From: Rhizobium skierniewicense
Lineage (GTDB): Bacteria; Pseudomonadota; Alphaproteobacteria; Rhizobiales; Rhizobiaceae
Direction of reading: 5' to 3'
Length of the DNA: 64,000 nucleotides
Assembly (NCBI RefSeq): GCF_014196515.1
Contig: NZ_JACIDV010000002.1
Span: 62,001 to 126,000 of the forward strand
Shown: in pieces, positions 3,999 through 59,522 of the stretch
Position numbering within the stretch: the first letter of the stretch is position 1
Layout: each line of letters starts with the position of its first letter
Program-made: the position numbers and the translations under genes
Notes under the pieces: model-generated
Database searches by the model: none
Seen by the model: only the letters and a program-made list of their open reading frames with translations
Told to the model about the DNA's origin: nothing

Positions 3999-6437
3999 AT
4001 GGCAACAGATCTAGAGCGCCTTGTCGTTCAGCTTTCGGCTGACGTTAAGGGATACGAGCGCGCCATGAACAAGGCGATCGGAACCACACAGAAGCGGGCC
4101 AATGAGATTGAGCGACGTTTTGGCGCTATGAATTCCAAGGTAGAAAAGTCGTTTGCCGGAATGGGTAGCCGCATCTCGTCTTCGTTGGATAGCGCTCTGA
4201 GATCGACTGTCGCGTTGGCTGGTACTGCGCTGGGTGTCAGTGAAATCGTCAAGTATGCCGATGCCTGGACTGAGGCAGGCAACAAGATCGGCGCAGCTGC
4301 TGCGTCGGCTAGTGTGCAGGCGCGCTCGCTGAACCAACTGAAAGATGGGGCGAACGGGGCAAGAACCGCGTTCGGTGACTATGTTGACCTGTATGCGAGA
4401 TTGATCCGATCCGCATCAGGTGTGGCGCAGTCGGAGCAGGAAATCGCCACAGCAACCGACATTGTCTCTAAGGCATTCAAGGCGGGCGGCGCTTCTGCAT
4501 CAGAGCAAGCGGCAGGCATTCTGCAATTGGGTCAGGCGCTGGGCTCTGGGGTTCTCCAGGGCGATGAACTCCGGTCCTTGCGAGAGAACGCGCCGATCTT
4601 GGCTCAGGCTATTGCCGACGAATTCAAGGTTACAATCGCAGGACTGAAAGACCTCGGCGCTGAAGGGAAGCTCACATCGGAACGCGTGTTCAAAGCTATC
4701 CTGAATGCACAAAAGCCGATTGAGGCACAGTTCAAAGCGACGAACTCCACGATCTCAGATGCGATGACGCGCATCAATAACGAATTTACTGCGTATATCG
4801 GCAATGCAGATTCGTCTGCTGGCGCGACAGGCAAGCTTGTCGAGGCGCTGAATTACCTTGCTGATAACTTCAAAGAGGTCGGCAATGTCGTCATTGAGTT
4901 TGTTACCATCCTCGTCGGCGCGTTGACAGGACGCGCTCTAGTCGCTGTTGTCGCTGGCCTCGGCAATGCGGTCGTGGCACTTGGTGCATTCATCACTGCC
5001 GTCCGCACGGGCGCGCTTGTGACGGGCAGTCTTGTTGCAGCCCTCGGCCCTATAGGCGTCATAGCAGGCGCAGCAGCTGCCGCAATCTATCTATATGGTG
5101 ACGGTCTATCTTCGGCGGAGCGGGCTTCCATTGCCACAGAGGCTGCGATCAAAACCAACGCTACGGCGCTCGATGCGGCGAAAGCCTCGTCTGAGGGGTA
5201 CACTAGAGCGCTTCGCAACCAGATTGCGATGCAGTTGGAGGTGGCGAAGGCCGAGGCTGCCGCAGCGTCTTATTATGCAGATGCAGCGACGGACAGAGCT
5301 ATAGCATTCACAAGATATTCGAGGATGCTCGGCGTCGAGGCAAAGTTTGAACCTTTCGAATATGCTGCAAACGAGGCTGAAAAGGCCGTCGTCCGAACGG
5401 CAAATGCGGCCACCGCTCTGCAGATGCAGTTGGATCAGGTCGATAAGGGTCTGGGCAAATCGCCATCGGGATTCGGTAAGGGGTCGGGCGCTGCGCCAGC
5501 AGACAAGAAAAAGAAGACCCGCGAGAACGAGTACCAGCGCGAGATCGAGCAGATCACGAAGCGAACCGACGCCCTTAAGGCCGAGACGGCGGCGCAGGCT
5601 GGCCTCAATCCGCTGCTCAACGAATACGGTTTTGCGGTTGAATTTGCGCGCGCCAAGCAGGACTTGCTGACCGCAGCCCAAGAGGCTGGCATCAAGATCA
5701 CGCCAGAACTAACCGCCAGCATCGAAAGCTTGGCATCTGGATATGCCAACGCCGTTGTTGCCTCCGAAAAGCTTGCCGAAAAGCAGGACGAAATTCGTCA
5801 GCGAGCCGAAGAGGCGATGGCGACAGCGAAAGACGTGACGCGAGGTCTGATCGATGGTTTCATTGAAGGCGCGAGCGCGGCTGACCTACTTAAGGACAGC
5901 CTGAAAAAGATCGCGGACACGCTGTTGAACGATGTGCTGAACAGCATCTTCAAGGTCAATAATGCCGGCTCTGGTGGTGGATTTCTGAGCGGACTGTTTA
6001 GCCTATTCGGAGGCGGCGGATTCGCATCTCTGCCCACGACTGGTCCGGTACCAACCCCACGACCATTCTCAGACGGAGGCTACACCGGCGACGGTGGCAA
6101 ATACCAGCCTGCCGGCGTCGTGCATAAGGGCGAGTATGTCTTCGACAAGGCAGCGGTTGCTGCTGCTGGCGGTCCTGCCGCCATGGAAGCCATGCGGCGC
6201 GGTCTGAAAGGCTACGCCAACGGCGGCGCGGTCGGGGTTTCGGTGCCTTCGTTGCCGAGCATAAAGCCACAGGGGCAACAACCGGTTCAAGTCAGCTTCG
6301 CCCCTGTCTACAATGTGCAGGGAAGCGGGCCGGAGATCGCGGAGCTTCGCGCTCAGATGGCGAAGGACAGGGCTCAATTCCCAGGCATAGCAGTCAAGTC
6401 AGTTCGTGAAGCTGGAAGACGATCATCGTCACTCTGA
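3999..6437 (+). CDS. Tail tape measure protein
   Basis: This 812-residue protein sets tail length and is extruded into the host during DNA entry. The N-terminal domain (about residues 5 to 260) resembles the lambda-type tape measure N-terminal domain, including an NQLKDGANGARTAFGDYVDL region and LGSGVLQGDELRSLRENAP. A strongly hydrophobic stretch lies at about residues 295 to 367, followed by coiled coil. The C-terminal 120 residues (6075 to 6437) are nearly identical to those of the tape measure protein on the minus strand at 52274 to 54250, although the rest is different. The ATG at 3999 follows the antisense lipoprotein gene directly. Confidence 0.9.
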   Translation: MATDLERLVVQLSADVKGYERAMNKAIGTTQKRANEIERRFGAMNSKVEKSFAGMGSRISSSLDSALRSTVALAGTALGVSEIVKYADAWTEAGNKIGAAAASASVQARSLNQLKDGANGARTAFGDYVDLYARLIRSASGVAQSEQEIATATDIVSKAFKAGGASASEQAAGILQLGQALGSGVLQGDELRSLRENAPILAQAIADEFKVTIAGLKDLGAEGKLTSERVFKAILNAQKPIEAQFKATNSTISDAMTRINNEFTAYIGNADSSAGATGKLVEALNYLADNFKEVGNVVIEFVTILVGALTGRALVAVVAGLGNAVVALGAFITAVRTGALVTGSLVAALGPIGVIAGAAAAAIYLYGDGLSSAERASIATEAAIKTNATALDAAKASSEGYTRALRNQIAMQLEVAKAEAAAASYYADAATDRAIAFTRYSRMLGVEAKFEPFEYAANEAEKAVVRTANAATALQMQLDQVDKGLGKSPSGFGKGSGAAPADKKKKTRENEYQREIEQITKRTDALKAETAAQAGLNPLLNEYGFAVEFARAKQDLLTAAQEAGIKITPELTASIESLASGYANAVVASEKLAEKQDEIRQRAEEAMATAKDVTRGLIDGFIEGASAADLLKDSLKKIADTLLNDVLNSIFKVNNAGSGGGFLSGLFSLFGGGGFASLPTTGPVPTPRPFSDGGYTGDGGKYQPAGVVHKGEYVFDKAAVAAAGGPAAMEAMRRGLKGYANGGAVGVSVPSLPSIKPQGQQPVQVSFAPVYNVQGSGPEIAELRAQMAKDRAQFPGIAVKSVREAGRRSSSL

Positions 6438-48365: not shown

Positions 48366-48441
48366 GCCCGAATAGCTCAGTTGGTAGAGCAGCGGATTGA
48401 AAATCCGCGTGTCGGTGGTTCAAATCCGCCTTCGGGCACCA
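48366..48441 (+). tRNA. tRNA-Phe (GAA)
   Basis: The 76-base cloverleaf has acceptor stem GCCCGAA with TTCGGGC, anticodon loop TTGAAAA (GAA anticodon), T-arm GGTTCAAATCC and encoded CCA. It is the integration target of the element that follows; its 3' part from 48394 belongs to attL. Confidence 0.97.
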
Positions 48442-48446
48442 TTCTA
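48394..48446 (+). repeat. attL core of the tRNA-Phe element (53 bp)
   Basis: The 53 bases from GGATTGAAAATCC to CACCATTCTA, covering the tRNA-Phe anticodon to 3' end plus five bases, are repeated exactly at 58923 to 58975. They mark the left end of an integrated element of about 10.6 kb. Confidence 0.92.
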
Positions 48447-48500
48447 ACCCCTTGGTGTTGCTGTCTTTTTCCATATTCAAGCTATTCCTTATAAATTCGG

Positions 48501-48535
48501 GTTTGACAGAATTTTCAAGATGGTTTGACAGAATT
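48501..48535 (+). repeat. Arm-type integrase sites, left end
   Basis: Two copies of GTTTGACAGAATT, at 48501 to 48513 and 48523 to 48535, lie close to attL; the second overlaps the end of the integrase gene. A third perfect copy is at 58874 and a partial one at 58833, near attR. They have the expected placing for arm-type sites of a lambda-like integrase. Confidence 0.65.
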
Positions 48536-49597
48536 CGTTTTCCGTCTGTTCACTTCGGCGGCGAAATCCTTCACGGCGGCGTTGGTCTGTTTCGACATAT
48601 CCGCTCGTCTCGAATAGTGTTTCGCCATGGCTTCCGTCTTCTGGCCAAGGACGTTGGCAATGGTCCCGTAGTCCATGTTCATTTCTCGGAGAATGGTCGC
48701 CACAGTGTGCCTCAGACCCTTCAAGGTCAGCCCCGGCTGGACGCTGCCTTGCTCCTCCAGTGCCATCCGAACAGGTCGCCACGACGCCCTAAACCCTGAG
48801 ACAGTCCACGGCTTGCCATGGCTGTTTGCACAGAGTGTCATCGCGGAATGTTCCGGCGCAGCGTCCAGCGCGGCCGAGACAGGGTCTAGGAGAGGCAACA
48901 GAACCGCTTCGCCTGTCTTGCCACGCTTGGTGTCGATCATCCCTTTCCGAATAGCCGTGCGGGGCAGGGATATGGCGTCCTGCGGATCGAGGCCGTAGAA
49001 CATCATCAGCGTGACTGCTGGCAGCATGTGAGAGGGCAGGGCCGCAAGCACGGCGTCCCGTTCGCTGTCCATCCATGGCCTGTTGGCTTCCGGCGCGTTC
49101 TTCGGGCGCTTAATGGCCTTGATGCCAGCGGCCGGGTTCTCTTTCACCTCACCCCGCTCTTTCCCCCAGGCGAACAAGAGGGAAAGCACCGTCCGGACAT
49201 AAGATCCAAACTTACGGCCCTTGCTCTCGCCTGCCTTGTCGCGGATCTTCACGATCAGCGGCGGCTTGAACGCTGTAAGCGGCGTGTTCTCAATGCTTTT
49301 GAGGTAATCAAAGCATTTCTGATAATCGGAGCGAGTGCGGGCCGAGATCTCGGTTTGAAATGCTGGACTGGCGCGGTACTTGGTGATGAGAGCGCCGAGG
49401 GTGCCAGCCTTCACGGCGTTGCTTTTTTCGTGGAGCTGGCTGATGCGGTAGCACTCGCCATAAAACTCCATCGTCCAGAGTGGGAATTGATCGATGTCGA
49501 TGGTGCTGCCAGTCTTGCGATGGTAGCAGCGCCATTTGAAAGGCGGCTTCTTATCCTGAAAAATCTGGAAGCCCTTTGGGCGTTTACGATCTGCCAT
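48515..49597 (-). CDS. Tyrosine recombinase / integrase with diverged active site
   Basis: This 360-residue integrase has an N-terminal arm-binding and core-binding part (SDYQKCFDYLKSIENTPL) and a catalytic domain ending with nucleophile Tyr328 in KHYSRR. Arg296 in LKGLRHT is kept. The position of the first catalytic Arg holds Asp204 (YGLDPQDAISLPR), His I is Lys293, and His/Trp III is Gln319. This set is shared by related rhizobial integrases from memory, so the enzyme may still be active. It lies beside attL, pointing to the end. Confidence 0.88.
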   Translation of the reverse strand: MADRKRPKGFQIFQDKKPPFKWRCYHRKTGSTIDIDQFPLWTMEFYGECYRISQLHEKSNAVKAGTLGALITKYRASPAFQTEISARTRSDYQKCFDYLKSIENTPLTAFKPPLIVKIRDKAGESKGRKFGSYVRTVLSLLFAWGKERGEVKENPAAGIKAIKRPKNAPEANRPWMDSERDAVLAALPSHMLPAVTLMMFYGLDPQDAISLPRTAIRKGMIDTKRGKTGEAVLLPLLDPVSAALDAAPEHSAMTLCANSHGKPWTVSGFRASWRPVRMALEEQGSVQPGLTLKGLRHTVATILREMNMDYGTIANVLGQKTEAMAKHYSRRADMSKQTNAAVKDFAAEVNRRKTNSVKPS

Positions 49598-49836
49598 CAA
49601 CCGAGCCTCGCGATAATAGCGTCATCGCCCGCTGCCTCGCCGCCTTTCAGCGCATCGAGGAAGTCGTCGAGGTCGCGCATATCGTAGACCTTGCCACCGG
49701 AAGGCATCGCGATCGGCGTCACGTGGCAATCCACAGGGAAGCGCTTCACTGGAAGGCCGCAATAGTCTGCGGCCTCCCTGAGCGTCAGCATACGCCGAGG
49801 CGCAACCCGAATGTTCAATGTTGCGGATGCAGCCAT
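49597..49836 (-). CDS. Excisionase-like winged helix protein
   Basis: This protein of about 79 residues has a MerR/excisionase-like helix-turn-helix (MLTLREAADYCGLPVKRF) followed by GGKVYDMRDLDDFLDAL. Such proteins bend att DNA and favour excision. Its stop overlaps the integrase start. ATG 49836 has AAAGG about nine bases upstream. Confidence 0.75.
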   Translation of the reverse strand: MAASATLNIRVAPRRMLTLREAADYCGLPVKRFPVDCHVTPIAMPSGGKVYDMRDLDDFLDALKGGEAAGDDAIIARLG

Positions 49837-49871
49837 TTCACGGAGCCTTTCTGTGCGTATCGGCACCAATA

Positions 49872-50141
49872 TTAGACATTAAAATCCGCCCTCGCTTTGC
49901 CCTGAATATCATCCACCATGGCGCTGACGGCCGCGCGGGGAATAGCGAGATCAGTAAGGGCTCGATCAAGGCACTCAGCGCATTTTTCGATGTGACTGTC
50001 ATCAAGCCAATCTTTGCTTTGTAGGGCCAACCAAACGACGCGCAGCAATGAGTCGACCCGGTAAAGATCCTCTGTGATGTCAATGAATGGGTCAGCTTTT
50101 GCGAGAGCTTCCATAAAATCGCTTCGACCAGTGGAGCTCAT
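49872..50141 (-). CDS. Small element protein, unknown function
   Basis: This 89-residue helical protein is not recognised. It has two tryptophans and two cysteines (AECLDRAL). It overlaps the upstream 113-residue gene by ATGA and precedes the excisionase-like gene, so it is part of an early minus-strand operon with the integrase. Confidence 0.5.
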   Translation of the reverse strand: MSSTGRSDFMEALAKADPFIDITEDLYRVDSLLRVVWLALQSKDWLDDSHIEKCAECLDRALTDLAIPRAAVSAMVDDIQGKARADFNV

Positions 50142-50476
50142 GCTGAACCGCCTTCCGGGCAGCAGTCCCGCAGATCGATAAGCTTGACCTGCAAGGCGTC
50201 TGAGAGCTTTTCCAATTCAAACGCGGCGTCCCAGATCTCGGCGGAGGCGAAGCCTAGAACTTTGCGTTGATCATCCCCGCAATAGTAGAAGCCAGGACGA
50301 TCGTTGATTTCACACGACTTAAAAAGAACGTCATCAATCAGGTTTTGGTTGATGATTCCGAAGCAATACAAGCTGTGAAGCTGTTCCTTGAGCGCTTCCA
50401 TTAACTTGCTGCATTCATGAATTTTTTCAGCAGCACTTGCGCCACTGGCAATTCTCGTTGTATGTATCGCGGGCAT
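50138..50476 (-). CDS. Element protein, unknown function
   Basis: This protein of about 112 residues is predicted helical, with CSKLMEALKEQLHSLYCFG and a C-terminal ELEKLSDALQVKLIDLRDCC stretch. ATG 50476 has AAAGG upstream. Not recognised. It lies between the Arc-like gene and the 89-residue gene in the early operon. Confidence 0.5.
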   Translation of the reverse strand: MPAIHTTRIASGASAAEKIHECSKLMEALKEQLHSLYCFGIINQNLIDDVLFKSCEINDRPGFYYCGDDQRKVLGFASAEIWDAAFELEKLSDALQVKLIDLRDCCPEGGSA

Positions 50477-50519
50477 AGATTGACCTTTCCAAGGGGTTAG
50501 GAAAAGCCGACGCTGGTTC

Positions 50520-50693
50520 TCAGGCCGTAGCGTCGGCTTTTTTCGTTTCGTGAATTTTTGTGCTCGAATATATGCTCTCAAGTGCCACTATGATCTCAGC
50601 ATTCATCGATCGCCGATTTTGCAGGGCTGACGCCTTGATTTTTTCTTTGACGTCTTGGGGCAAGCGAACCCCAAGCGGAGGAATTGCACTCAT
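50520..50693 (-). CDS. Arc family DNA-binding protein (small repressor)
   Basis: This 57-residue protein (MSAIPPLGVRLPQDVKEKIK, then NRRSMNAEI) is a ribbon-helix-helix protein of the Arc/Mnt family, which acts as a dimer of dimers. AAGGA lies seven bases upstream. It is divergent from a second Arc-like gene, and three operator-like palindromes lie between the starts, as in phage immunity switches. Confidence 0.8.
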   Translation of the reverse strand: MSAIPPLGVRLPQDVKEKIKASALQNRRSMNAEIIVALESIYSSTKIHETKKADATA

Positions 50694-50711
50694 TGAAAGT
50701 TCCTTAGGTGA

Positions 50712-50777
50712 CTACACAGTGTAATCGCTACACATTGTAGCTATTGTCGTCAATCAAATTTTAACTACAACGTGAAG
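50712..50777. promoter_or_regulatory. Three-site operator between divergent Arc-like genes
   Basis: Three related dyads are visible: CTACACAGTGTAA (50712 to 50724), GCTACACATTGTAGC (50727 to 50741, perfect), and CTACAACGTGAAG (50765 to 50777, degenerate, touching the ATG at 50780). The first two are 16 bases apart centre to centre. They are good candidates for binding sites of the Arc-like proteins. Confidence 0.7.
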
Positions 50778-50779
50778 TC

Positions 50780-51400
50780 ATGAGCATCAAAAAGCCCGCC
50801 GACGAAAAAGTTTCTAATGTTCCACCCTTTGGATTGCGCTTGCTTCCGGAGTTAAAGGACAAAATTGCCAAAGCGGCCTCTGAGAATAATCGCTCTATGA
50901 ATGCTGAGATCGTTGCGCGTCTCACGCTGACCTTGGAAGAGACGATATGGGAGCGCCAGAAATTTATCGATACGCTCAATTTTAAGCAGCACATGCTCGA
51001 AAAAGCAGGCCACATGCTCTTTCGCAATATTGCGGAAATGAGAGCTTTGAAAAATAATCTTGAGTACGAGACCGCCCTCCGGATTTCTCAAAGTAATACT
51101 GTAGCTGCTCTCTGCCATGCGATTTTGGATTCTGATGCAGAAGGCCGACTGAAAGAGACAGCAGATTTTGTGTTGTCCGCTGCCATCAATCCAGACACGG
51201 TTACCGATATGGATGCCCTGCAGGAGATGTTGGATCGAGAGCTCGGCGACAGCGATGACGTTCCGGCGGACTGGGAAGATTCCCTTTCGGACGAGGATAA
51301 GAAGAACCTCAACGAGGCAAAGATGTTTGTGGCTCGCGACGGAGATGTCGAACTGAATAGACTCGGCAACCGACCAAGAAAACAAAAGCCTAAGAAATAG
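50780..51400 (+). CDS. Arc family DNA-binding protein with long C-terminal region
   Basis: This 206-residue protein has an N-terminal ribbon-helix-helix domain (FGLRLLPELKDKIAKAASEN then RSMNAEIVARLTLTLEE) and a helical and acidic C-terminal region of about 140 residues with a basic tail (PRKQKPKK). It is divergent from the 57-residue Arc-like gene. The two share the RSMNAEI core helix and could compete for the same operator. Confidence 0.8.
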   Translation: MSIKKPADEKVSNVPPFGLRLLPELKDKIAKAASENNRSMNAEIVARLTLTLEETIWERQKFIDTLNFKQHMLEKAGHMLFRNIAEMRALKNNLEYETALRISQSNTVAALCHAILDSDAEGRLKETADFVLSAAINPDTVTDMDALQEMLDRELGDSDDVPADWEDSLSDEDKKNLNEAKMFVARDGDVELNRLGNRPRKQKPKK

Positions 51401-51488
51401 CCCCATTCCTAAGTGCCGATAACCTCTGACTTATCGGAACTCAGCACCCTTCTGTCACTTCATCTAAAAACAAGCAGACGCTATTCTC

Positions 51489-51797
51489 ATGAAATCAATA
51501 TGGTTGCCCTTGGGCCTGATAGTCGTTCTGATCGGCCTAGCTGTATGGCTGGGAGGCGTCCGCATCTTCGTAATCCAGCCTATAGGCGCTATTCCGAAAG
51601 GCGTGACGGCTGTAGTGATCGGAATACACGGCCTGAACTTTGTCGATAGTCCTGACGCGGTATGCGCTCGATTGGGACAACCGAACCTGTTCTGCCGTGG
51701 TGCGGCGGCCGCGCGTGTGGCAAATGAGGGAAAGATTATTCTACGCCTTCCTTACAGCGAGACTCTCTATCGGATGACAGGCCCAAAAATGTATTAG
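51489..51797 (+). CDS. Small membrane protein of the element
   Basis: This 102-residue protein has one N-terminal membrane segment (residues about 5 to 27, LPLGLIVVLIGLAVWLGGVR) and a soluble periplasmic part with two cysteines (DAVCARLGQPNLFCRG), perhaps a disulfide. It may be expressed in the lysogen together with the Arc-like gene upstream. Not recognised; a superinfection-exclusion role is possible. Confidence 0.55.
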   Translation: MKSIWLPLGLIVVLIGLAVWLGGVRIFVIQPIGAIPKGVTAVVIGIHGLNFVDSPDAVCARLGQPNLFCRGAAAARVANEGKIILRLPYSETLYRMTGPKMY

Positions 51798-51810
51798 GTG
51801 AACTGAAAAA

Positions 51811-52026
51811 GGGTTCGCAAAATTGGCGAACCCTCACCTTGGACAATTTGTCCGTTGCTTACGTGGTGGACAAATTGTCCGTGACGTAACTGGGGAATTT
51901 CCCCACCATGCTCATCGCCAAGTTGGCGACGAGGGTTAGAGTTGCCAATCTGGCGACTCTTTCAACGGCCAGCAGCAAGTCGCCAACTTGGCGACATGGC
52001 AACGTTCAAGTGGCAAACTTTGCCAC
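51811..52026. repeat. Array of eight spaced short palindromes
   Basis: Eight palindromes of 13 to 23 bases lie in a row: 51811-51833, 51841-51853, 51868-51880, 51892-51904, 51915-51929, 51938-51960, 51979-51995 and 52010-52026. Most have the centre AANTT with an unpaired middle base (for example GGACAATTTGTCC, GGACAAATTGTCC, GGGGAATTTCCCC, GTCGCCAACTTGGCGAC, GTGGCAAACTTTGCCAC). Centre distances are 25, 27, 24, 24, 27, 38 and 31 bases. Arm sequences differ but remain self-complementary. The last one lies in the end of the helix-turn-helix gene. Purpose unknown. Confidence 0.85.
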
Positions 52027-52251
52027 ATGAGCCTTTGGAAGGCGCATATGGTTTGTGTCGCCTTCACCCACCCGCCTAAAAACCAGCAGATCCCCCGCTT
52101 TTTCTGCCTTCTTGACGGCTATTCTAACGGTAGATCGACTGACGCCGGCCCGCGCTGCGACCTCGACATGTGATAGCTCACAGCAATTACGGCGGCTGAT
52201 TTCGGTGTAGATCGCCACCAGGGCGCGGTTTTCAAGTTCAGAATAGACCAT
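52006..52251 (-). CDS. Winged helix-turn-helix protein
   Basis: This protein of about 81 residues has a clear helix-turn-helix (LSHVEVAARAGVSRSTVRIA then VKKAEKAGDLLVFRR). It is the last gene of the element's minus-strand structural operon, after the tape measure gene, and its end touches the palindrome array. It may bind that array. ATG 52251 has GGAG nine bases upstream. Confidence 0.7.
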   Translation of the reverse strand: MVYSELENRALVAIYTEISRRNCCELSHVEVAARAGVSRSTVRIAVKKAEKAGDLLVFRRVGEGDTNHMRLPKAHVAKFAT

Positions 52252-52273
52252 AGAACAGGCTCCCAACAACCAG

Positions 52274-54250
52274 TTAAAGTGACGATGATCGTCTCGCAGC
52301 TTCACGAACCGACTTGACTGCGATGCCAGGGAACTGAGCCCTATCCTTAGCCATCTGCGCCTTGAGTTGCTCGATTTCCGGCCCGCTACCTCGCACGTTG
52401 TAGACGGGGGCAAAGCTGACTTGAACAGGCTGTTGCCCTTGTGGCTTCATGCTCGGCAGTGACGGCACCGAAACACCGACCGCGCCGCCGTTGGCGTAAC
52501 CTTTGAGGCCGCGCCGCATGGCCTCCATTGCGGCGGGACCGCCAGCGGCCGCGACAGCCGCCTTGTCGAAAACGTATTCGCCCTTATGAACGACGCCGGC
52601 AGGCTGATATTTACCACCGTCACCAGTGTAGCCCCCCTCTGCAAACAGACCGCCAGGCGCGGAGGGAAATTTGCCGCCGCCGCCGCCAAGCATGCTGAAT
52701 ATGCTACCGAGCCCGCCCCCGCCCCCGCCGCTGAAAAGCTGGTTCAAGCCGCTGTCGAGTAGCCGACTGGCAAGGCTCTTCAAGGCGTTGCCCAACGATT
52801 CCGCTGCCGAAGCGCCGTTGAGGAAGCCATCAACCATCGTGCCTGCAAAGTCCTTCGCAGCTTCTCGCGCCTCTTGTGCGGCTTCTGCAAGCCTGTCTGT
52901 GGCGTCCTGCTCCCGCTGGATTGCGTCGATCTTGTTGGCGATGGAAAGCTGCTCGTCGCTGGTCGCTGCCGCGCCTGCCTGTCTCAGCGCGTTCATCTTC
53001 TCTTGTTGGACCGCAGTCTTGCCGATCAGCGAATATTCGAAATCAAGCTGCGCTATCAGGTCGGTTACGGCCTTGCGTTCCCTGTCGGCTAGATTGGCAG
53101 CTCTTTCACGCCCGCGCTCTTCGCCGGGGTCTGTCGGCTTGATGGGAGTGAAGGTCCGGTCTGTTGGCTTCGAGACTTCCGGAAGCCGAGAGTTTCGGAT
53201 TTCGACAATCTTCTGCTCTTCCTTGGCGATATCTTCGAGGCGCTGCTGATGCTCTCGCAAGTCGGTGTTGTTGACTGCCTGAGACAGGGGATTGCTCATC
53301 CCTGCACGTTCAATCTCCCGCTGGCTTTCCTTCGAGGCCAGTATCTTGTTCTCGATTTCTAGCCGTTCAAGCCCCAGTTCGGCGGCGCGTCTGTCGAGCG
53401 TTGTGTTATTTTGGTTTTCTACCGAGCGCCAAGCGTCGATGAAATCCACAAGCGAGTCTGCAGCGGAAACAATTGCGCCCTTCAGGTTCTGGCCCACTGT
53501 GTTAACGATGGTGTTGAACTTTGCGTCCAGATCAGCGGCGCGCTTTACGAGCTTTTCCTCAATCACGATGCCCAGGTCATTTGCTGCCGTGATCTGCGAC
53601 CGAATCCCCGCTTCGCCTTGCTCGATGAGCGCAACCATTCGTTCGCCGCCTTGACCACCGAATAGCTCATCAAATATGCGGACGCCTGCCGCCGTGTCTT
53701 TCAACTGGCGGGTTCTCTCGACGAGTAGCAGGAGGAACTCAGACGGATTTTTCAGCCGCTCCTGTACCTCCTGAGGTGTCAATCCAAGCCGCTGGAAAGC
53801 CTCGGCAGCGCTGCCCTTGCCAGTCACGGCAAACTCGTCGGCTCGCAGCGACAGCTCTTTGAGGCCATCCGTGATGGCGTCAATCGGAATACGGGCTTGT
53901 TCGGCCACATAACGCCACTCTTGAAATGCTTCGACCGACACACCTGCGATCTTGGCTTGATCCCCCAGCTCGGCCACGGCTTTCGTTGCAGCCACAAATC
54001 CGGAGGTTAACCCGGCTATCCCGCCCGCTGCGACACCTGCGAACAGTCCGGCGCCAAAGCTCTTGAACACACCGCCGATCTTTGCCGCGCTGGAAGCGAA
54101 CGATGTTTCCATGGTTCGCGCTGCGCTGCGGCTGCGGCGTTCGATATTTGACATATTCTTGTCTACGCCACTTTCGAAGCGCTTTAGCTTCTTTTCAGCG
54201 TCAGCGAGGCGCACCTCCATGCGCGTGTACAGAACGGCATCATTTGCCAT
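52274..54250 (-). CDS. Tail tape measure protein of the compact element
   Basis: This 658-residue protein has a lambda-type tape measure plan: an N-terminal coiled coil, a hydrophobic stretch near residues 55 to 95 (GGVFKSFGAGLFAGVAAGGI), long helices, and a glycine-rich hinge (about 510 to 535). The last 120 residues (52274 to 52636) match those of the prophage protein at 6075 to 6437 with about six changes. It follows the gp10-like gene by an overlap. The gene is complete, with no frameshift. Confidence 0.88.
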   Translation of the reverse strand: MANDAVLYTRMEVRLADAEKKLKRFESGVDKNMSNIERRSRSAARTMETSFASSAAKIGGVFKSFGAGLFAGVAAGGIAGLTSGFVAATKAVAELGDQAKIAGVSVEAFQEWRYVAEQARIPIDAITDGLKELSLRADEFAVTGKGSAAEAFQRLGLTPQEVQERLKNPSEFLLLLVERTRQLKDTAAGVRIFDELFGGQGGERMVALIEQGEAGIRSQITAANDLGIVIEEKLVKRAADLDAKFNTIVNTVGQNLKGAIVSAADSLVDFIDAWRSVENQNNTTLDRRAAELGLERLEIENKILASKESQREIERAGMSNPLSQAVNNTDLREHQQRLEDIAKEEQKIVEIRNSRLPEVSKPTDRTFTPIKPTDPGEERGRERAANLADRERKAVTDLIAQLDFEYSLIGKTAVQQEKMNALRQAGAAATSDEQLSIANKIDAIQREQDATDRLAEAAQEAREAAKDFAGTMVDGFLNGASAAESLGNALKSLASRLLDSGLNQLFSGGGGGGLGSIFSMLGGGGGKFPSAPGGLFAEGGYTGDGGKYQPAGVVHKGEYVFDKAAVAAAGGPAAMEAMRRGLKGYANGGAVGVSVPSLPSMKPQGQQPVQVSFAPVYNVRGSGPEIEQLKAQMAKDRAQFPGIAVKSVREAARRSSSL

Positions 54251-54644
54251 CGTTAAACTCCTTTACGGCTTTGTTGAGCGCACGGCTGCGACGGCTTCGG
54301 AACTTCTTTTTCAGCAATCGATAGGCAGGCCAGTAAAATGGTTGAGCGTTTTGTTTGACGGTCCCGAACTCGGCCGCCAAGGCGTAATCATACTTACCGC
54401 CAGCACTTGGCCTGGTCGTCGTCGCACCACCTGCGCGCACCACCTGTCCACCCGTCTCGGTTTCATGGTGCCTGATGCTGTCATGAAGCGGCGTTCCGTC
54501 CTCCGGATCTTTGGGGACAAAGCGTTGAGACAGATTAACCCATTCCTGAGCATCCTTCTCAATCGCTTTGTTGACTTCCTTCAGGACCGTTTTAGGAAGC
54601 CTTCGGAGCCGCCGCTTGAATTCGGCCATCCCGTTGTTAGCCAT
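54240..54644 (-). CDS. HK97 gp10-like protein of the compact element
   Basis: This 134-residue protein has the gp10 pattern: MAEFKRRLRRLPKTVLKEVN helix, PKDPEDGTPLHDSIRHHE, then YDYALAAEFGTVKQNAQPFYWPAYR. It would act at the head-tail joint. It overlaps the chaperone-like gene upstream and the tape measure gene downstream. Confidence 0.78.
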   Translation of the reverse strand: MANNGMAEFKRRLRRLPKTVLKEVNKAIEKDAQEWVNLSQRFVPKDPEDGTPLHDSIRHHETETGGQVVRAGGATTTRPSAGGKYDYALAAEFGTVKQNAQPFYWPAYRLLKKKFRSRRSRALNKAVKEFNDGK

Positions 54645-54984
54645 CGGCTGTGTCTACGTCTTTGTCAGTGCCGAAAAGGAAAGACTCAACGACCGTGAGA
54701 ACGGTCGGCATACTCTCGGCAATCGGCCTGTTTTCCACCCAGGTCTTAACCTTGCTGGTCGCCTCGATCGGCGTCATGCCGCCACCAACAAGGCCGAGGT
54801 GTAAAATAGACCGAATGTCGATTAGCATGGCGGCTCTGGCCTGAACCATCTGATTGAAGGTAGAAAAAAGGGAGCGGCCGTTGTCACGCTCCCAACTGCA
54901 TGCGAGCTCCCATGTGAGATTGAAGGTGTATTCACCGTCTCCGAATGGCAGAGTTACTTCGCCGAGAGATTTTGGCGGCGTCAT
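54637..54984 (-). CDS. GTA gp10-like tail assembly chaperone of the compact element
   Basis: This 115-residue protein has LGEVTLPFGDGEYTFNLTWE and a later RSILHLGLVGGGMTPIEA, the same family as the chaperone at 2829 to 3209. It lies directly after the capsid gene with no tail tube or connector gene between, an unusual order. It probably serves the tape measure protein made from the same operon. Confidence 0.78.
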   Translation of the reverse strand: MTPPKSLGEVTLPFGDGEYTFNLTWELACSWERDNGRSLFSTFNQMVQARAAMLIDIRSILHLGLVGGGMTPIEATSKVKTWVENRPIAESMPTVLTVVESFLFGTDKDVDTADG

Positions 54985-55072
54985 GGATAGATCCTTTGAA
55001 GGTTGAGTGAAAGAACGGCGGCTCCCCCAGGAGAAAAGGGAGCCGCTTACTGACCGGATGGGATTGGCCCGA

Positions 55073-56299
55073 TCAGGTCACGTTACCGAAATCACCGTAG
55101 GTCAGTGCCTTCGGGTTCTTCACGGCAAAGGCGAGACGTTCTTCGGCAAGAACGGTGACCATGTTGTTGATGAAGTCCTTATCGACGTAACCAACCTCGA
55201 TGCGCGCTTCCCAGCGGTCGTAGATGGTCGCGGCCTGACGGAAGGCACCGACGAGGAATTTATCCACGGAGATCGCGGGCGTTGAAACAACAGGCAGGCC
55301 GAAAAGAACGGGCTGAACAACGGACTGCGGATCTCCCATGATGTAACGGCCCTGACTGTCTTTCGTCAGGCGCATGGCCCACCAGTCAGCAGGATTGACG
55401 ATGACGCCATCAGGCTCATAGAGGGCAAGAGAGGTTTGCAGCGCGGCGAGGGCAACATTGTCGATCGCCGTTGCTCCGGCAACAACGATGGGAGCGGCAT
55501 AAGCCGTCGCCTGAGGGATCATTCCGAGCAGATTTTGGCCCGTGCCGTCACCGCTCAGGAGCTGAGTCTCTTCTTTGAGAGCGAGGCCGTAAAGAAGTTC
55601 GCTGTCGATGATGCTGGAAAGCTGCGGGACATCATCGAGAACCTGCCGTGACGCCTTCATCCAGTGAGCGATTACCTTCGCGGCCGTTGTCTTGAGTTCG
55701 AACTGGAGATCGCTTTCGGGCTTCGTCGCCGTTTCTGCGACCATGCCCGCGTTCAAATTGCGATTGAGCATGTTCGGGTATTCGACAGAACCCACTTCAA
55801 TCTTGATCGAGGTAAGAAGGTCGCGGACGGTGAGGCGGGTGCGAGGCAATTGATTGACGCTGTCTCTGTACGGGGAAGCCATCGCGCCCGCCGATCCGGC
55901 CGCATTCGTTGTTGCTGTGGTGATAGATGCCTTCACGCGCATCTCGCCGGGGCGCGCATTCTTCTGGTCTTTCACGTCGAGGAAGTTTGCGAAACCGTCG
56001 CTCTCGACGAAGCTTGCGCCAACTGACTTGCCAGAATGGTTTCCGCCACCAGCGTAATTGGCGCGCGCCGCTTTCTGCTCAAGCGTAGCAATCGATTCAT
56101 TCATCCCTTCGTGAAGCTTCTTCAGTTTTTCGTCCTGAATGCCAAGCTTTTTCATCACCTCAGCGGTGTGTTCGCCAAACTGCTTTGCGAGGAGTTCTAG
56201 CGGCGCGTCGGAGCCTTCGCTCTTTGTCCGCATTTTCGCACTGTCGAACAGATGGAGGGCGGCGCTTTCGGTGAGGGTGCGTTTCGTATGCATGTTCAT
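55073..56299 (-). CDS. HK97-type major capsid protein
   Basis: This protein of about 408 residues has the typical delta domain coiled coil (residues 30 to 75, HTAEVMKKLGIQDEKLKKLH), a linker, and the HK97 fold with VAETATKPESDLQFELKTTA, HWMKASRQVLDD, LLSGDGTGQNLLGM and the C-terminal FAVKNPKAL. The start at 56299 has AAGGA upstream and is two bases from the protease stop. The gene is intact. Confidence 0.92.
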   Translation of the reverse strand: MNMHTKRTLTESAALHLFDSAKMRTKSEGSDAPLELLAKQFGEHTAEVMKKLGIQDEKLKKLHEGMNESIATLEQKAARANYAGGGNHSGKSVGASFVESDGFANFLDVKDQKNARPGEMRVKASITTATTNAAGSAGAMASPYRDSVNQLPRTRLTVRDLLTSIKIEVGSVEYPNMLNRNLNAGMVAETATKPESDLQFELKTTAAKVIAHWMKASRQVLDDVPQLSSIIDSELLYGLALKEETQLLSGDGTGQNLLGMIPQATAYAAPIVVAGATAIDNVALAALQTSLALYEPDGVIVNPADWWAMRLTKDSQGRYIMGDPQSVVQPVLFGLPVVSTPAISVDKFLVGAFRQAATIYDRWEARIEVGYVDKDFINNMVTVLAEERLAFAVKNPKALTYGDFGNVT

Positions 56300-56300
56300 G

Positions 56301-57137
56301 TCAGATTTCCTTGAGTTTCTGAGTTGCTTCGCTGATCTGCGCCAAGAGGCGGGACACTTGCTCATTGTCGATTTCTTCATGCTTGGAGAGGGCTTTCCAG
56401 CCACCAGACATGACGAGGCGTGCGGCCTGTTTCGACAGGCCACCAGCGCGGAGAATATTTTCGATTTCGTCTTGTGATTTATGCCCTGTGATGCTGGCAT
56501 CTCGGTTTGCCGGGAACGTGACAGGCGACACCTCGTAAACGTCCAGTTCGATCAGATCGAGGACGCCGTCGCGGTCGCGTTGCGCATTTTTTTCGTGATA
56601 GCCGATCGACAGGCTGTCCACGTCACCAGCCGAAATATGCTCGTAAGCGTTTCGGCCTGCATCCGTTTTGAGGTTGATCTGGCCCTCGACAAAGAGGCCT
56701 TTTCCATCCTCTGTAGCCCGTGACCATATGCCAATCGGCATATCGGCCCGATGCTGCCAGAGCATTTTTATGCGTGAACCACGCTGGGAGTGCTGAGCGA
56801 GACTAGCCTTGAACGCACCAGGCAGAACACGTTCGCCGTAGCTATCGACATTGCCGAAAATCGAGCCGTAGCCAGAGATGCGGCCCGAACTATCGGCCTT
56901 GATTTCCAACGCCAAGGCGTTCGAAAACTTAAAGTTTGGGGAGTTTTTTTGCAGAAACACGGCTTCACCTTCGGAAACGTCAAAACACTCGGGCTGTTTG
57001 CCCGTTTTCTTGTGCTTCGCGTCCGGTATGGTCGCCGGTCCTGTCGAAGGTGGTTCGTCGCCGTGCGCCCTAGACCAGCCAGTGACGCTTTCAATCGAAC
57101 CGTGGCAAGAATTGCGCTGAGTCTGCTGATTTGTCAA
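56301..57137 (-). CDS. HK97-type prohead protease
   Basis: This protein of about 278 residues has the protease domain from residue about 70: GRISGYGSIFGNVDSYGERV, LPGAFKASL, catalytic-type His129 in LWQHRADMPIG, Ser177 in SLSIGYH, then VYEVSPVTFPAN. It removes the capsid protein delta domain during head maturation. I propose a TTG start at 57137, which overlaps the upstream stop (TTGA) and has GGGGAG upstream; no ATG fits. A C-terminal part of about 60 residues is helical. Confidence 0.85.
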   Translation of the reverse strand: MTNQQTQRNSCHGSIESVTGWSRAHGDEPPSTGPATIPDAKHKKTGKQPECFDVSEGEAVFLQKNSPNFKFSNALALEIKADSSGRISGYGSIFGNVDSYGERVLPGAFKASLAQHSQRGSRIKMLWQHRADMPIGIWSRATEDGKGLFVEGQINLKTDAGRNAYEHISAGDVDSLSIGYHEKNAQRDRDGVLDLIELDVYEVSPVTFPANRDASITGHKSQDEIENILRAGGLSKQAARLVMSGGWKALSKHEEIDNEQVSRLLAQISEATQKLKEI

Positions 57138-57406
57138 TTGGGGTTTCTCCCCTCGCCAGTGAGGCTGTGGAAAAGTCCGGCCTCGATCTTGTCCGCGACC
57201 TCTCGCAACGCGGCGGCGGTCTTGGCGGAACCATCGTTCACAGCGGCCTGTGCGGTCGCGTATGTCAGCATTCGATCGAGGATCATCGGGACCGGCGCGC
57301 CGGCTTCCGACGCGGCGAGTTCTGCGGCGCGGGAAATTACCAGGTCGCAGAATTGCTTCTGGCGCTCTGCCGCTTCGCTCTCGATGGTAACTTTGGTGGG
57401 CTTCAT
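57134..57406 (-). CDS. Small element protein, unknown function
   Basis: This 90-residue helical protein is not recognised (KVTIESEAAERQKQFCDLVI, then ALREVADKIEAGLFHSL). It is coupled to the zinc-finger gene upstream (ATGA) and the protease downstream (TTGA). A position between a small zinc protein and protease is normally taken by terminase and portal genes; these are absent. Confidence 0.55.
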   Translation of the reverse strand: MKPTKVTIESEAAERQKQFCDLVISRAAELAASEAGAPVPMILDRMLTYATAQAAVNDGSAKTAAALREVADKIEAGLFHSLTGEGRNPN

Positions 57407-57663
57407 GGCTTTCCCTTTCTGGACTTGATGAGCGCGAGGAGCTCCCCCTGTGTGGGAGCCCGGCCGCCAAACATTGCGTGAATTTTTGCCCGCAGATCGC
57501 GGTTATCTTGGCGGTAAGTCGCCCCGTATCGCAGCGCCCGTTCACGCTTGCATGCTTCCGAGCAAACCTGCCGAGGCCGATCTCCATTTTCAAATTCGGC
57601 GTTGCAGATCACGCAAATTCCGACGCGAGGGCCATCGGTAAAAAATACCTCTTTTTCAGTCAT
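57403..57663 (-). CDS. Small zinc-finger protein (HNH-like position)
   Basis: This 86-residue protein has two cysteine pairs, CVICNAEF and CSEACKRERAL, a probable zinc site like that of small treble-clef proteins. In HK97-type phages an HNH protein lies at this place, next to the packaging site, and helps terminase cut cos. No catalytic HNH set is clear. Translation is coupled to the next gene. Confidence 0.6.
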   Translation of the reverse strand: MTEKEVFFTDGPRVGICVICNAEFENGDRPRQVCSEACKRERALRYGATYRQDNRDLRAKIHAMFGGRAPTQGELLALIKSRKGKP

Positions 57664-57880
57664 TCGGCACCTCGTCGCGCGATAAAAAGAAGCAATTACA
57701 ATGGCTTAATTTTTCGCTGCGCTCGTAAACCGTCTTTTTCATCGGTTGACGGTAAAAATAATCGCGCCGAAAAAAAATCTCTGAATGAGGGGGAGGCGGG
57801 TCTGTGAAAGTGAGGCTTTTCAGACTTTTAGCCCGCCCCCCGGTCTGCGCGTTTGGGTGTCGCTGGTTCGTATCCATCAT
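57656..57880 (-). CDS. Doubtful 74-residue frame in possible packaging region
   Basis: An open frame begins at 57880 inside the replication gene stop (ATGA) and ends at 57656. The product is rich in basic residues and prolines and looks unlike a folded protein (SLTFTDPPPPHSE). The DNA under it is unusual, with a run of T on the minus strand and a CCCCC stretch, so the region may rather be a signal such as a packaging site. Confidence 0.3.
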   Translation of the reverse strand: MMDTNQRHPNAQTGGRAKSLKSLTFTDPPPPHSEIFFRRDYFYRQPMKKTVYERSEKLSHCNCFFLSRDEVPND

Positions 57881-58668
57881 GCGCCACCAGCCTTCCCAGG
57901 CATCTGCGACACGCGCTCGATAACCATGTGGACGCCAGATCCTTGCGTCTTGAGTTCCGCGACAATCGCCGCGCTCTCGATCTCAGGCGTCATGCGCTGG
58001 TCGATGACTGAACGGATGGTCTCACCCAGCTTGCCGATCTCGCATTCGATGCGATGTCTCGCCGCCTCCTGCGCAGCCACAACCGAAGGTAGTTGACGCT
58101 TGATCGCAGGTCGATGCCTCAAGCTGTCTCTCAAGAGCCCTTGAACCGTCTCGGCTGATACAGTTCGAACAGGCTTTGAGGATGGATGATCGTCACCCCT
58201 TCCACTTGCTCCGTCAGCATCATTGAGTTTCTTGGTTGAGTTCCTTGATTGAGTTAGGGTGCAAGAACTTGCACTATGTATGTGCAAGCTTTTGCACTTA
58301 GTATGTGCAGGTTCTTGCACTATCTCAGTCTCCGTTTCATCGCCTTCGAACTGTCGAATGAGTGCGTTAAAGGCCTCCCATTTTGGCTGATATCGGGACC
58401 GGAAACCGTTCCCGCCGTGCCTTACCTTTACAACCAAGCCGAGCCTGTGAAGCTCATTCGTGGCGTTCACGACAGACCTTCGGCTTGCACCAGATTTGCT
58501 CATCAGGCGTTCCGTGCCGGGGTCACACTGCCCCGTTCTGACGTTGAAATGTCCGATGATAATGGCCGCGATCTTCTTGGCATCGCCCGACAATCCGTCA
58601 GCCAGACAGATGGCACGGTAGGCAATGGGAAGGTCGTTTTTGCCGGGAAGGTCTGGCTTATCGCTCAT
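57877..58668 (-). CDS. Replication initiator-like helix-turn-helix protein (lambda O-like)
   Basis: This protein of about 263 residues has an N-terminal winged helix typical of phage replication proteins (LIAYRAICLADGLSG-like start, ERLMSKSGASRRSVVNATNE, LHRLGLVVKVRHGGNGFRS). The middle is a low-complexity linker coded by DNA that carries three dyad iterons (58259 to 58320) and three 13-base repeats (58222 to 58260). This is the arrangement of lambda O with its internal ori. No helicase loader or helicase gene follows. The start overlaps the small upstream frame. Confidence 0.75.
   Translation of the reverse strand: MSDKPDLPGKNDLPIAYRAICLADGLSGDAKKIAAIIIGHFNVRTGQCDPGTERLMSKSGASRRSVVNATNELHRLGLVVKVRHGGNGFRSRYQPKWEAFNALIRQFEGDETETEIVQEPAHTKCKSLHIHSASSCTLTQSRNSTKKLNDADGASGRGDDHPSSKPVRTVSAETVQGLLRDSLRHRPAIKRQLPSVVAAQEAARHRIECEIGKLGETIRSVIDQRMTPEIESAAIVAELKTQGSGVHMVIERVSQMPGKAGGA
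58222..58260 (+). repeat. Three 13-base tandem repeats beside the iterons
   Basis: ATTGAGTTTCTTG, GTTGAGTTCCTTG and ATTGAGTTAGGGT follow each other without gaps, directly before the dyad iterons. They are AT-rich relative to the region and could be the unwinding part of an origin. Confidence 0.6.
58259..58320 (+). repeat. Three dyad iterons with 23-base period (putative origin)
   Basis: GTGCAAGAACTTGCAC, GTGCAAGCTTTTGCAC and GTGCAGGTTCTTGCAC are each 16-base dyads, with 7-base spacers TATGTAT and TTAGTAT. They lie in the coding sequence of the replication-like gene. Form and location are like the O-binding iterons of lambda ori. Confidence 0.8.
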
Positions 58669-58841
58669 CGATAGGTCAGTTGATGCGCTGCTTTCGCGGC
58701 GTCCGTGGCTTCCATTGTGGTCAGGATGAACTTGCGGCGTAGGAAGACGAGGACGCTTCCTGATACCTGCGAACGGTTCAGGTAAAGCCACATCGCAGCT
58801 TCGCGAACCCGAGGCTGAAAGGCCTCTAAGGAGTTTGACAA
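58665..58841 (-). CDS. Small protein coupled to the replication gene
   Basis: A frame of about 58 residues starts with TTG at 58841 or, shorter, ATG at 58793 (MWLYLNRSQVSGSVLVFLRR). Its stop overlaps the start of the replication-like gene. It ends with MEATDAAKAAHQLTYR. Helical; not recognised. No strong ribosome site is seen, so the start is uncertain. Confidence 0.4.
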   Translation of the reverse strand: MSNSLEAFQPRVREAAMWLYLNRSQVSGSVLVFLRRKFILTTMEATDAAKAAHQLTYR

Positions 58842-58886
58842 ATCTCTAGTAACGTACTGATTTCCAGCATCGAGTTTGACAGAATT
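58833..58886 (+). repeat. Arm-type integrase sites, right end
   Basis: GTTTGACAGAATT at 58874 to 58886 is an exact copy of the left-end sites, in the same orientation. A shortened copy GTTTGACAAATC lies at 58833 to 58844. Confidence 0.6.
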
Positions 58887-58922
58887 ATCGGCGCAAGTGA
58901 TTGAATGAGGCTGAACAACACG

Positions 58923-58975
58923 GGATTGAAAATCCGCGTGTCGGTGGTTCAAATCCGCCTTCGGGCACCATTCTA
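58923..58975 (+). repeat. attR core of the tRNA-Phe element (53 bp)
   Basis: Exact copy of the 53-base attL core. Only the anticodon to 3' part of tRNA-Phe is present, so it is not a functional tRNA. It may also be the left junction of the decayed element that follows. Confidence 0.92.
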
Positions 58976-59053
58976 TCTCCTTGATATTGTTTGGTGTTTT
59001 GTAATTGTACTATAAGTTAGTTTTCTCGCGTCTAGACATACTTTCGGTTTTCC

Positions 59054-59397
59054 CTAGACGTTTGGTGTTTTCCTCCTGTTCACCTCCACCTCAAAATTAG
59101 CGATTGTTTCTGTCATCTTTTCCAACATATCGGCACGCCTTGAATAGTGCCTCGCCATGGCCGCAACAGTGTGCCGCAGTCCTTTCAGCGTCAGGCCAGG
59201 CTTTACGTATCCAGCCTCCTCAGGTTTTACCCGTACAGGACGCCATGACGCCCTGAGGCCTGAAACGGTGCAAGGCTTGCCATACAGGCTGCGATCGATC
59301 GACCGCTCCATTCTGTGGCAAGAGGCCACATTAGGCCGAACTTGTAGGTGCCGTCGGCGAAGTTGGCCTCGACAAGTGCAAAGGGTTGTGTAGTCAT
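59054..59397 (-). pseudogene. Remnant of a third element: tail chaperone-integrase chimera
   Basis: The first part (from ATG 59397) codes for EANFADGTYKFGLMWPLATE, the start of a GTA gp10-like chaperone. In another frame the sequence then continues as an integrase C-terminus: YGKPCTVSGLRASWRPVR, LKGLRHTVAA, then MARHYSRRADM, with about 22 residues missing compared with the integrase at 48515. It is a deletion remnant of a related element that used the same tRNA-Phe. It has no second att copy to the right. Confidence 0.75.
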
Positions 59398-59522
59398 GTT
59401 GTTTTCCATGTGAAACGCCAACGCGAAAGCACGCGCCGGATGGGCGCGTGGTGGGGGGCGGTGGTGTTGGTGTGGAACTGCCGGTCTTGGCAAACGTTCC
59501 TACTGCAATCAGGAGAGATCAA

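Follow-up and report, generated by a model that had tools for sequence, protein, structure and literature searches.

Can a mobile element make use of genes for a head and for a tail ruler when it has no recognizable gene for the motor that would fill that head? The question is raised by a 10.58-kb element in the genome of Rhizobium skierniewicense (NCBI RefSeq assembly GCF_014196515.1), within a stretch of 64,000 nucleotides (contig NZ_JACIDV010000002.1, positions 62,001 to 126,000 of the forward strand) that is called the window here and from whose first letter the element's coordinates are counted. A first-pass annotation, made from the letters of the window alone, had proposed that the element was a phage satellite with its own capsid and tape-measure protein (TMP) that relied on a helper for packaging, or else a prophage shortened by clean deletions. 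Recurrence, gene order, dN/dS and a cos-like site of helper type lend support to the first proposal, and at a probability of about 0.8 we read the element as an integrated, recurrent phage satellite that supplies the determinants of head and tail length and borrows the packaging motor, portal, tail tube and tail tip. What the sequence shows directly is the gene content, the att sites, the recurrence, a conserved and odd arrangement of genes, homology at the cos-like site, a chimeric TMP and, in the sister elements, purifying selection.

Boundaries and gene content

The element is bounded by direct repeats at 48394-48446 and 58923-58975, the cores of attL and attR, which are identical over 53 nt, exactly as first described, and 94% identical over 67 nt; a tRNA call identified the left copy as the 3′ part of a tRNA-Phe(gaa) gene at 48366-48441. 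The structural genes of a resident prophage cross the left edge of the window. In this strain roughly 50 kb separate the element from that matching prophage, and in the IMG/VR database they are represented by contigs of 9,366 and 40,212 bp, respectively.

Twenty open reading frames (ORFs) of the region were scanned against Pfam and PHROG, and 18 of them are in or mostly in the element. The structural genes form a minus-strand series, read from an S78 prohead protease (56301-56960, start uncertain; PF04586 2e-31) through an HK97-type major capsid protein (55073-56299; PF05065 9e-50), a tail assembly chaperone (TAC) of the Phage_TAC_11, GTA gp10 type (54637-54984; PF11836 6e-12) and an HK97-gp10-like neck or tail-completion protein, hereafter gp10 (54240-54644; phrog_5 1e-12), to a TMP of 658 residues (52274-54250; phrog_10574 4e-147). 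Overlaps of a few bases join these genes to their neighbours; for the capsid the best start, chosen by overlap, is 56299, which abuts the protease stop at 56301. The matched genes are open throughout, and all five frames that had been called intact and mostly overlapping are matched by Pfam or PHROG profiles.

The genes for mobility and control are likewise largely those first named. A tyrosine integrase gene adjoins attL (48515-49600, minus strand; PF00589 2e-7, phrog_1 3e-32), and its product has 87% amino-acid identity with integrases from two further elements that occupy this site. The repressor pair consists of two Arc-type genes on opposite strands (50520-50693, minus, PF03869 1e-9; 50780-51400, plus, PF03869 3e-9), and the replication gene with iterons is a replication-initiation-like gene (57877-58668, minus; HTH_36, phrog_678) with short tandem repeats inside it at 58222-58323. 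The small excisionase- or AlpA-like gene (49597-49869, minus) owes its name to its position next to the integrase and to its relatives; it matched nothing in Pfam or PHROG.

None of the 18 element ORFs matched a Pfam or PHROG family for terminase, portal, tail tube, tip, holin or lysin, in agreement with the absences first reported; of the connector class, gp10 (phrog_5) is the sole match in the element. Over the whole of the element's own genome, the TerL-nuclease family PF20441 is matched only at C2:57609, in the resident prophage, and the portal family PF04860 only at C2:58649, again in that prophage, and at a locus on C9, all outside the element; both families, searched over the four whole genomes that hold this element and its three att-bounded sisters, gave no hit inside any element. 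When 102 ORFs of at least 110 amino acids from those four elements were compared with Pfam, capsid, TAC_11, gp10 and integrase had four hits apiece, and the 25 families listed, of 35 matched, include neither a terminase nor a portal. Neither appeared among the 25 of 26 families listed for 97 ORFs from the elements of genomes G026 and G032, the second element of G034 and an element in an Oricola metagenome-assembled genome (MAG). One GPD match was seen among the 97 ORFs of L127, L131, L132 and L103, and a gene like that of the BhuB baseplate hub found no match among the element's ORFs.

Recurrence, gene order and selection

With the element capsid as query, 16 of the 39 genomes sampled from the genus gave a match, and most of the neighbourhoods fetched are full prophages. 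Sister elements bounded by att repeats are present in three other species: at the same tRNA-Phe in G035 and G019 (repeats of 54 and 51 bp, lengths of 16.1 and 15.7 kb) and at a tRNA-Ser in G034 (16-bp repeat, 16.5 kb). All three carry an integrase, an excisionase-like gene, capsid, TAC, gp10 and TMP, and neither terminase nor portal was matched in them. A further member, in which TAC and gp10 were not recognized, is on a contig of 12 kb from G017 (L046). The related genomes, to which the first-pass annotation had pointed for a decision, thus yielded such sisters in three species and not one full parent prophage.

The order of the tail genes sets this group apart. Annotated phages have gp10, terminator, tube, TAC and TMP in that order (not every gene being named in every record), whereas the element and its sisters have TAC-gp10-TMP, the reverse of the phages with gp10 before TAC, so that colinearity with a parent phage is lost. 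This argues against a shortened prophage, because deletion alone cannot swap gp10 and TAC. Among 163 TMP-bearing locus entries, 25 have TAC-gp10-TMP and 10 the phage order, the order test being inapplicable in the other 128. The 25 entries come down to 19 distinct loci, no two of which share long stretches at more than 92% identity, and 17 of these have neither a TerL nor a portal match; the exceptions are L228, with TerL, and L229, with a portal-matching ORF of 116 amino acids at the contig edge. Many of the IMG/VR contigs are incomplete, and the absence of terminase and portal is therefore firm only for the att-bounded elements.

Several single loci deserve mention. L228 is a viral contig of 8.6 kb in which TAC-gp10-TMP is followed by TerL and a second TMP, resembling two joined satellite types, and the viral contigs L219 and L222 combine TAC-gp10-TMP with a TerS match (8e-5 and 5e-16) and no match to TerL or portal. 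A portal match in a tail-fibre ORF of L042 (phrog_1289) was dismissed as spurious, as the same ORF matches tail-fibre families better. The s164 protein was tried as a family-wide marker and given up, being absent from the element's own genome and present in 1 of 10 genomes searched; its five loci in IMG/VR are all of the sister type.

Selection was gauged from dN/dS by the Nei-Gojobori method. The closest pair of sisters, the satellites of G035 and G034 at their different tRNA sites, gave 0.05 for capsid, 0.05 for gp10, 0.10 for TAC and 0.06 for the adjoining s164, at dS of 0.36-0.59 for all four genes and 0.36-0.57 for the first three, and these values, together with some for s164 and for the TMP C-terminus, are the only ones free of strong saturation. 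The G019 capsid against those of G035 and G034 gave 0.05-0.06 (dS above 1.6), and pairs with the more divergent G017 capsid gave 0.19-0.26 (high dS). Across the sister elements, where dS was finite, the ranges were 0.05-0.26 for capsid, 0.05-0.08 for gp10, 0.09-0.10 for TAC and 0.15-0.36 for TMP; the element's own TMP stands at 0.15 against that of G034 (dS 2.1), the remaining TMP pairs reaching up to 0.36, and its integrase at 0.06-0.07 (dS 1.5) against two others from the same site. Capsid and TMP, the two genes singled out at first pass for such a comparison, are well below 1 in the pairs compared, and the relaxed selection to be expected of a prophage remnant is not seen in the sister elements.

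A cos-like site of helper type

The strongest non-coding match between the element and the resident prophage, 56 of 72 nt at 57770-57841 (minus strand), falls in the prophage directly upstream of the small terminase gene, terS. From its position and conservation we infer a putative cos-type packaging site, called type 1 here, with the layout GGGGGG.. AAAAGTCT .. GCC followed by GAGATTTTTTT at 60 bp from its start, shortly ahead of terS. This layout is found in Agrobacterium phage Rivra and in three other prophages, one of which lacks the exact end block, and nowhere further among 154 loci scanned. As a pattern in the 39 whole genomes, type 1 has five hits, namely the element and four prophages (the resident one included) upstream of terS, and the reversed control pattern has none. 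In IMG/VR the type-1 core alone picked out seven contigs: five with adjoining terS, the element, and one of 10.5 kb with primase-polymerase, S78 protease, capsid and integrase by Pfam and no terminase or portal match. The Oricola MAG element has a weak type-1-like site (59/80, E 8e-4). Being of helper type, the site suggests that the element could be packaged by a helper. Because the cos-like site lies inside it, a 74-codon ORF at 57656-57880 is unlikely to be a gene.

The sister satellites carry cos-like sites of their own, which lie between the capsid and TAC genes. Type 2 has six hits in the 39 genomes, in three prophages upstream of terL and in the satellites of G034, G035 and G017, and type 3 has three, in one prophage and in the satellites of G019 and G035. 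Types 2 and 3 are separated by 80 bp in G035, and BLAST found both in G017 and G019 at 76-98%. Two different cos-like sites are adjacent between the capsid gene and TAC in L042 (11464-11646), L046 and L045 (10415-10578), and in the first two the pair comes after cold-shock-like and HNH genes, as judged by eye.

A chimeric tape-measure protein

Over its last 122 residues the element TMP is 93% identical to the TMP of the resident prophage, against 30% over the remaining 469 residues of the alignment; at the DNA level the 3′ end of the gene (52278-52641, minus strand) matches the prophage gene at 6070-6433 of the window in 312 of 364 nt (86%). The body of the protein is nearest to that of the G034 satellite (64%) and, among those aligned, then to the TMPs of elements like the capsid-forming phage-inducible chromosomal islands (cf-PICIs; 46%). 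In siphophages the C-terminus of the TMP docks at the tail tip, and the chimera therefore suits a satellite ruler mounted on a helper tip. At 658 residues against the 812 of the prophage TMP, the ruler predicts shorter tails for this satellite and prophage pair.

Other occupants of the tRNA-Phe site

Two copies of the att core are present in 10 of the 39 genomes, and the elements between them are of several kinds. That of G026 has a protease (phrog_53), a lambda-E-type capsid (phrog_29), TAC_7 and a TMP of phrog_28, and no match was seen between its integrase and the element's; that of G032 has a protease-capsid fusion (phrog_4523) and a phrog_28 TMP; and in the second element of G034, where a TMP was not found, there are a protease, a decoration protein, an E-type capsid and a gene of fibre-like type. 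In G027, whose ORFs were scanned in part, only a fibre-like gene was recognized, and the integrases of G032, G034 and G027 are related to that of the element. The 29.6-kb element of G030 gave only integrase, excisionase-like and tail-tip matches, and the 60.7-kb one of G018 was left out of the comparison. The 7.1-kb insertion of G004 (L126, C12:243598-250753), at the same tRNA-Phe att, is not of satellite kind; by eye it holds a DNA methyltransferase, a histidine-kinase-like ATPase, a response regulator and a Vsr-like nuclease, and looks like a defence island.

Capsid and TMP modules unrelated to those of the element thus occupy the same att site. We consider it probable, with less assurance than for the satellite reading itself, that the cargo of this family is a set of size determinants, capsid and TMP, swapped as a module at one tRNA-Phe site together with a counterfeit helper cos and with no motor of its own, and that some members, having two different cos-like sites next to each other, could be packaged by two unrelated types of helper. 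The module combinations would then be an HK97-type capsid with a siphophage TMP, a lambda-E-type capsid with a phrog_28 TMP, and the protease-capsid fusion with a phrog_28 TMP.

The site has a history in this strain too. Directly right of attR, at 58976-59412 (minus strand), are the decayed remains of another satellite, arranged in tandem with the element: an integrase end (84% nucleotide identity to that of G019) joined to a TAC start (81% to the G019 TAC), and the site has for this reason been hit at least twice. Of four genomes with a single att copy, only L391 shows both flanks, about 2.2 kb apart, so the evidence for precise excision is weak.

Relatives outside the genus and the origin of the element

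A family-wide search with the TMP matched 52 of 394 genomes. Of the 40 loci fetched, TerL comes directly before the TMP in 25, TerL or portal is matched elsewhere in 14, and neither is matched in one, the Oricola MAG element (L103). A scan of genome contigs gave 193 relatives, of which 80, mostly from Rhizobiales and Rhodobacterales, were kept: 58 with TerL directly before the TMP (32 of these with a tail-tube match), 17 with TerL or portal elsewhere and five with neither, among which a capsid match occurs only in L177, the same locus as L103, where integrase, TMP and capsid are found together. By both counts, elements of the terminase-less type are in the minority outside the genus.

The elements with TerL before the TMP resemble cf-PICIs with tmp, and their order is portal-protease-capsid-HNH-connectors-TerS-TerL-TMP. 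They hold the nearest TMPs outside the genus and, for the sister satellites, near capsids as well, and gene s260 is shared with some of them, as it is with one full prophage (L041). These likenesses could mean that the element is a degenerate cf-PICI that lost its portal, connectors and terminase and is now packaged by a helper, an origin that we regard as possible and, on balance, rather unlikely: the TAC-gp10-TMP order differs from that of the cf-PICI-like elements, and three unrelated capsid types at one att site argue for repeated capture. Such a descent concerns where the element came from, and is compatible with the function proposed for it here.

Two compact elements, L095 and L097, run from portal to TerL, TMP, tail tube (scanned in L097, phrog_158) and a minor tail gene resembling gpM, with an adjoining integrase, and are intermediate between a cf-PICI and a small phage. 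L387 (G019 C42) is a cf-PICI-like locus with a portal match in an ORF of about 160 amino acids beside TerS, TerL and TMP, in the same genome as the G019 satellite.

A proposed life cycle

As a satellite, the element would be kept silent by its repressors until a helper is induced or infects, at which point it would be excised by its own integrase and replicate from its own initiator and iterons. It would make its own capsid protein, protease, TMP, TAC and neck protein, and the helper would provide the portal, the other connectors, tail tube, tail tip, lysis and terminase. The helper terminase would recognize the cos-like site at 57770-57841 and fill heads of satellite protein, and chimeric tails would form in which the satellite TMP docks on the helper tip via its helper-like C-terminus and sets its own length, as in the phage-inducible chromosomal island-like elements (PLEs) of V. 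cholerae.

Several points weigh against this account. Expression, excision, particle composition, transfer and the identity of the helper are read from sequence, and a capsid of satellite origin would have to function with a foreign portal. The cos-like match to the resident prophage is 78%, and as a packaging site it is putative. The element's own capsid is comparable only with distant relatives, at near-saturated dS, and outside the genus the type looks rare, L103 alone of the 40 loci having a capsid without terminase and portal. Most of the IMG/VR members are incomplete contigs, and since the Pfam scans list 25 of 35 and 25 of 26 families, the absence of terminase and portal from the sister elements also rests on the PF20441 and PF04860 searches and the locus scans. 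Nor is a shorter TMP a general trait of satellites, whose lengths (651, 658, 702, 784 and 853 residues) overlap those of ten genus prophages (647-904).

The same genes might instead belong to an anti-phage island, with capsid and TMP as dominant-negative decoys that spoil the virions of the helper and with transmission secondary or absent. Satellites do interfere with helper assembly, the Rta protein of PLE11 being described as targeting the helper TMP (PMC12987554), and the helper-like C-terminus of the element TMP would admit a decoy into helper tails. We judge this improbable, as a decoy has no need of a cos site, a replication origin, an integrase or a protease, and joint purifying selection on capsid, TAC and gp10 fits the building of particles better. 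Least credible of all is a prophage shortened by clean deletions, its capsid and TMP leftovers and its cos-like site a relic, for although every structural part has phage homologues (the capsid is 48-55% identical to those of full genus prophages) and a decayed remnant directly adjoins the element, the same reduced collection of genes is met again in several species and at two tRNA sites, in a gene order that simple deletion cannot reach, with purifying selection in sister elements and a cos-like site kept without any match to terS or terL, and a deletion in a single strain is rejected on this recurrence, order, selection and cos.

Comparison with known satellites

Known satellites reshape the head of their helper, build a complete head along with packaging genes (cf-PICIs) or swap tail parts (PLEs). 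The element is closest to the last two, and departs from both in defining features. Like a cf-PICI it is integrated and encodes a capsid protein and a protease of its own, and some cf-PICIs carry a putative tmp (PMC12987554, legend of Extended Data Fig. 10). However, cf-PICIs are described as encoding portal, connectors, TerS/TerL and HNH and as needing only tails (PMC10690885), and the element has no portal or terminase match, no connector match except gp10, a TAC and a TMP, so that dependence for tails alone does not describe it. With PLEs it shares a satellite-encoded TMP and TAC, which PLEs are reported (2026) to use in chimeric tails (PMC12987554). Scaled from the PLE case, in which 95 residues correspond to an expected 10-15 nm (PMC12987554), the difference of 658 against 812 residues would make the tails of the element some 16-24 nm shorter. 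The element differs in bringing its own capsid and in lacking a BhuB-like match, whereas the virions of PLE11 are described with helper capsid proteins and contractile tails (PMC12987554), and the PLE helper as a virulent phage (PMC10803314).

P4 and the cos-type PICIs use the helper terminase via a helper-like cos (PMC10690885), and the element resembles them in having such a site, by sequence homology, and its own replication gene. Those satellites reshape the helper capsid, whereas the element encodes a capsid protein, and its sisters may hold two cos types; for a scaffold of Sid type, which shrinks the helper capsid, the one candidate is a weak scaffolding-like match in a 90-amino-acid ORF (57134-57406, minus; phrog_206 3e-4), with a weak relative in the Oricola MAG element. 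The Mulch and Flayer satellites of Streptomyces phages also have capsid genes and, unlike the element, encode terminase and portal, and they have no recognizable primases (PMC10690885).

The element must also be set apart from gene transfer agents. In these a complete cluster for head and packaging occurs with no att, integrase or cos, and the element has an integrase, att sites and a cos-like site, with terminase and portal unmatched. As far as we found in a partial literature search, a satellite that has both capsid and TMP and no terminase is not described. The novelty claimed at first pass stands for that combination and is narrowed by PLEs, which use their own TMP and TAC, and by the cf-PICIs with a putative tmp.

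Should the satellite reading hold, a satellite would control both dimensions of the virion and leave the packaging motor to the helper, its capsid could be filled through a foreign portal and terminase, its TMP would reset tail length by docking on a helper tip, and the range of helpers could be read from cos sites. Searches that require the packaging genes of cf-PICIs would probably miss such elements.

Remaining features and minor observations

The other ORFs of the element are small, and only very weak relatives of the small ORFs turned up. Two early ones of 89 and 147 amino acids (49872-50581, minus) have no assigned function, a small Cys-rich ORF (57403-57663, minus) has a weak HNH match (phrog_1271 1e-3), a small protein whose N-terminal part shows, by eye, a hydrophobic stretch (51489-51797, plus; phrog_37309) is found in sister satellites too, and a winged-helix regulator (52006-52251, minus; HTH_24, phrog_15967) precedes the TMP gene in window coordinates.

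A palindrome scan found six perfect 13-bp palindromes at 51841-52025, with a common core AA-N-TT and differing arms (GGACAANTTGTCC, GGGGAANTTCCCC, CGCCAANTTGGCG, GGCAAACTTTGCC); one 250-bp bin has 5 of the window's 24 palindromes, and the next-best bins listed have 1. Two palindrome types co-occur in two further elements (L044 2599-2636; L128 6430-6469). Around GGACAAATTGTCC, 25 of 26 bases are common to 51861-51886 of the window and 2815-2840 of the resident prophage (L030), where the stretch lies inside an ORF of 529 amino acids that is ParB/methyltransferase-like by eye; possibly it is an operator shared by element and prophage.

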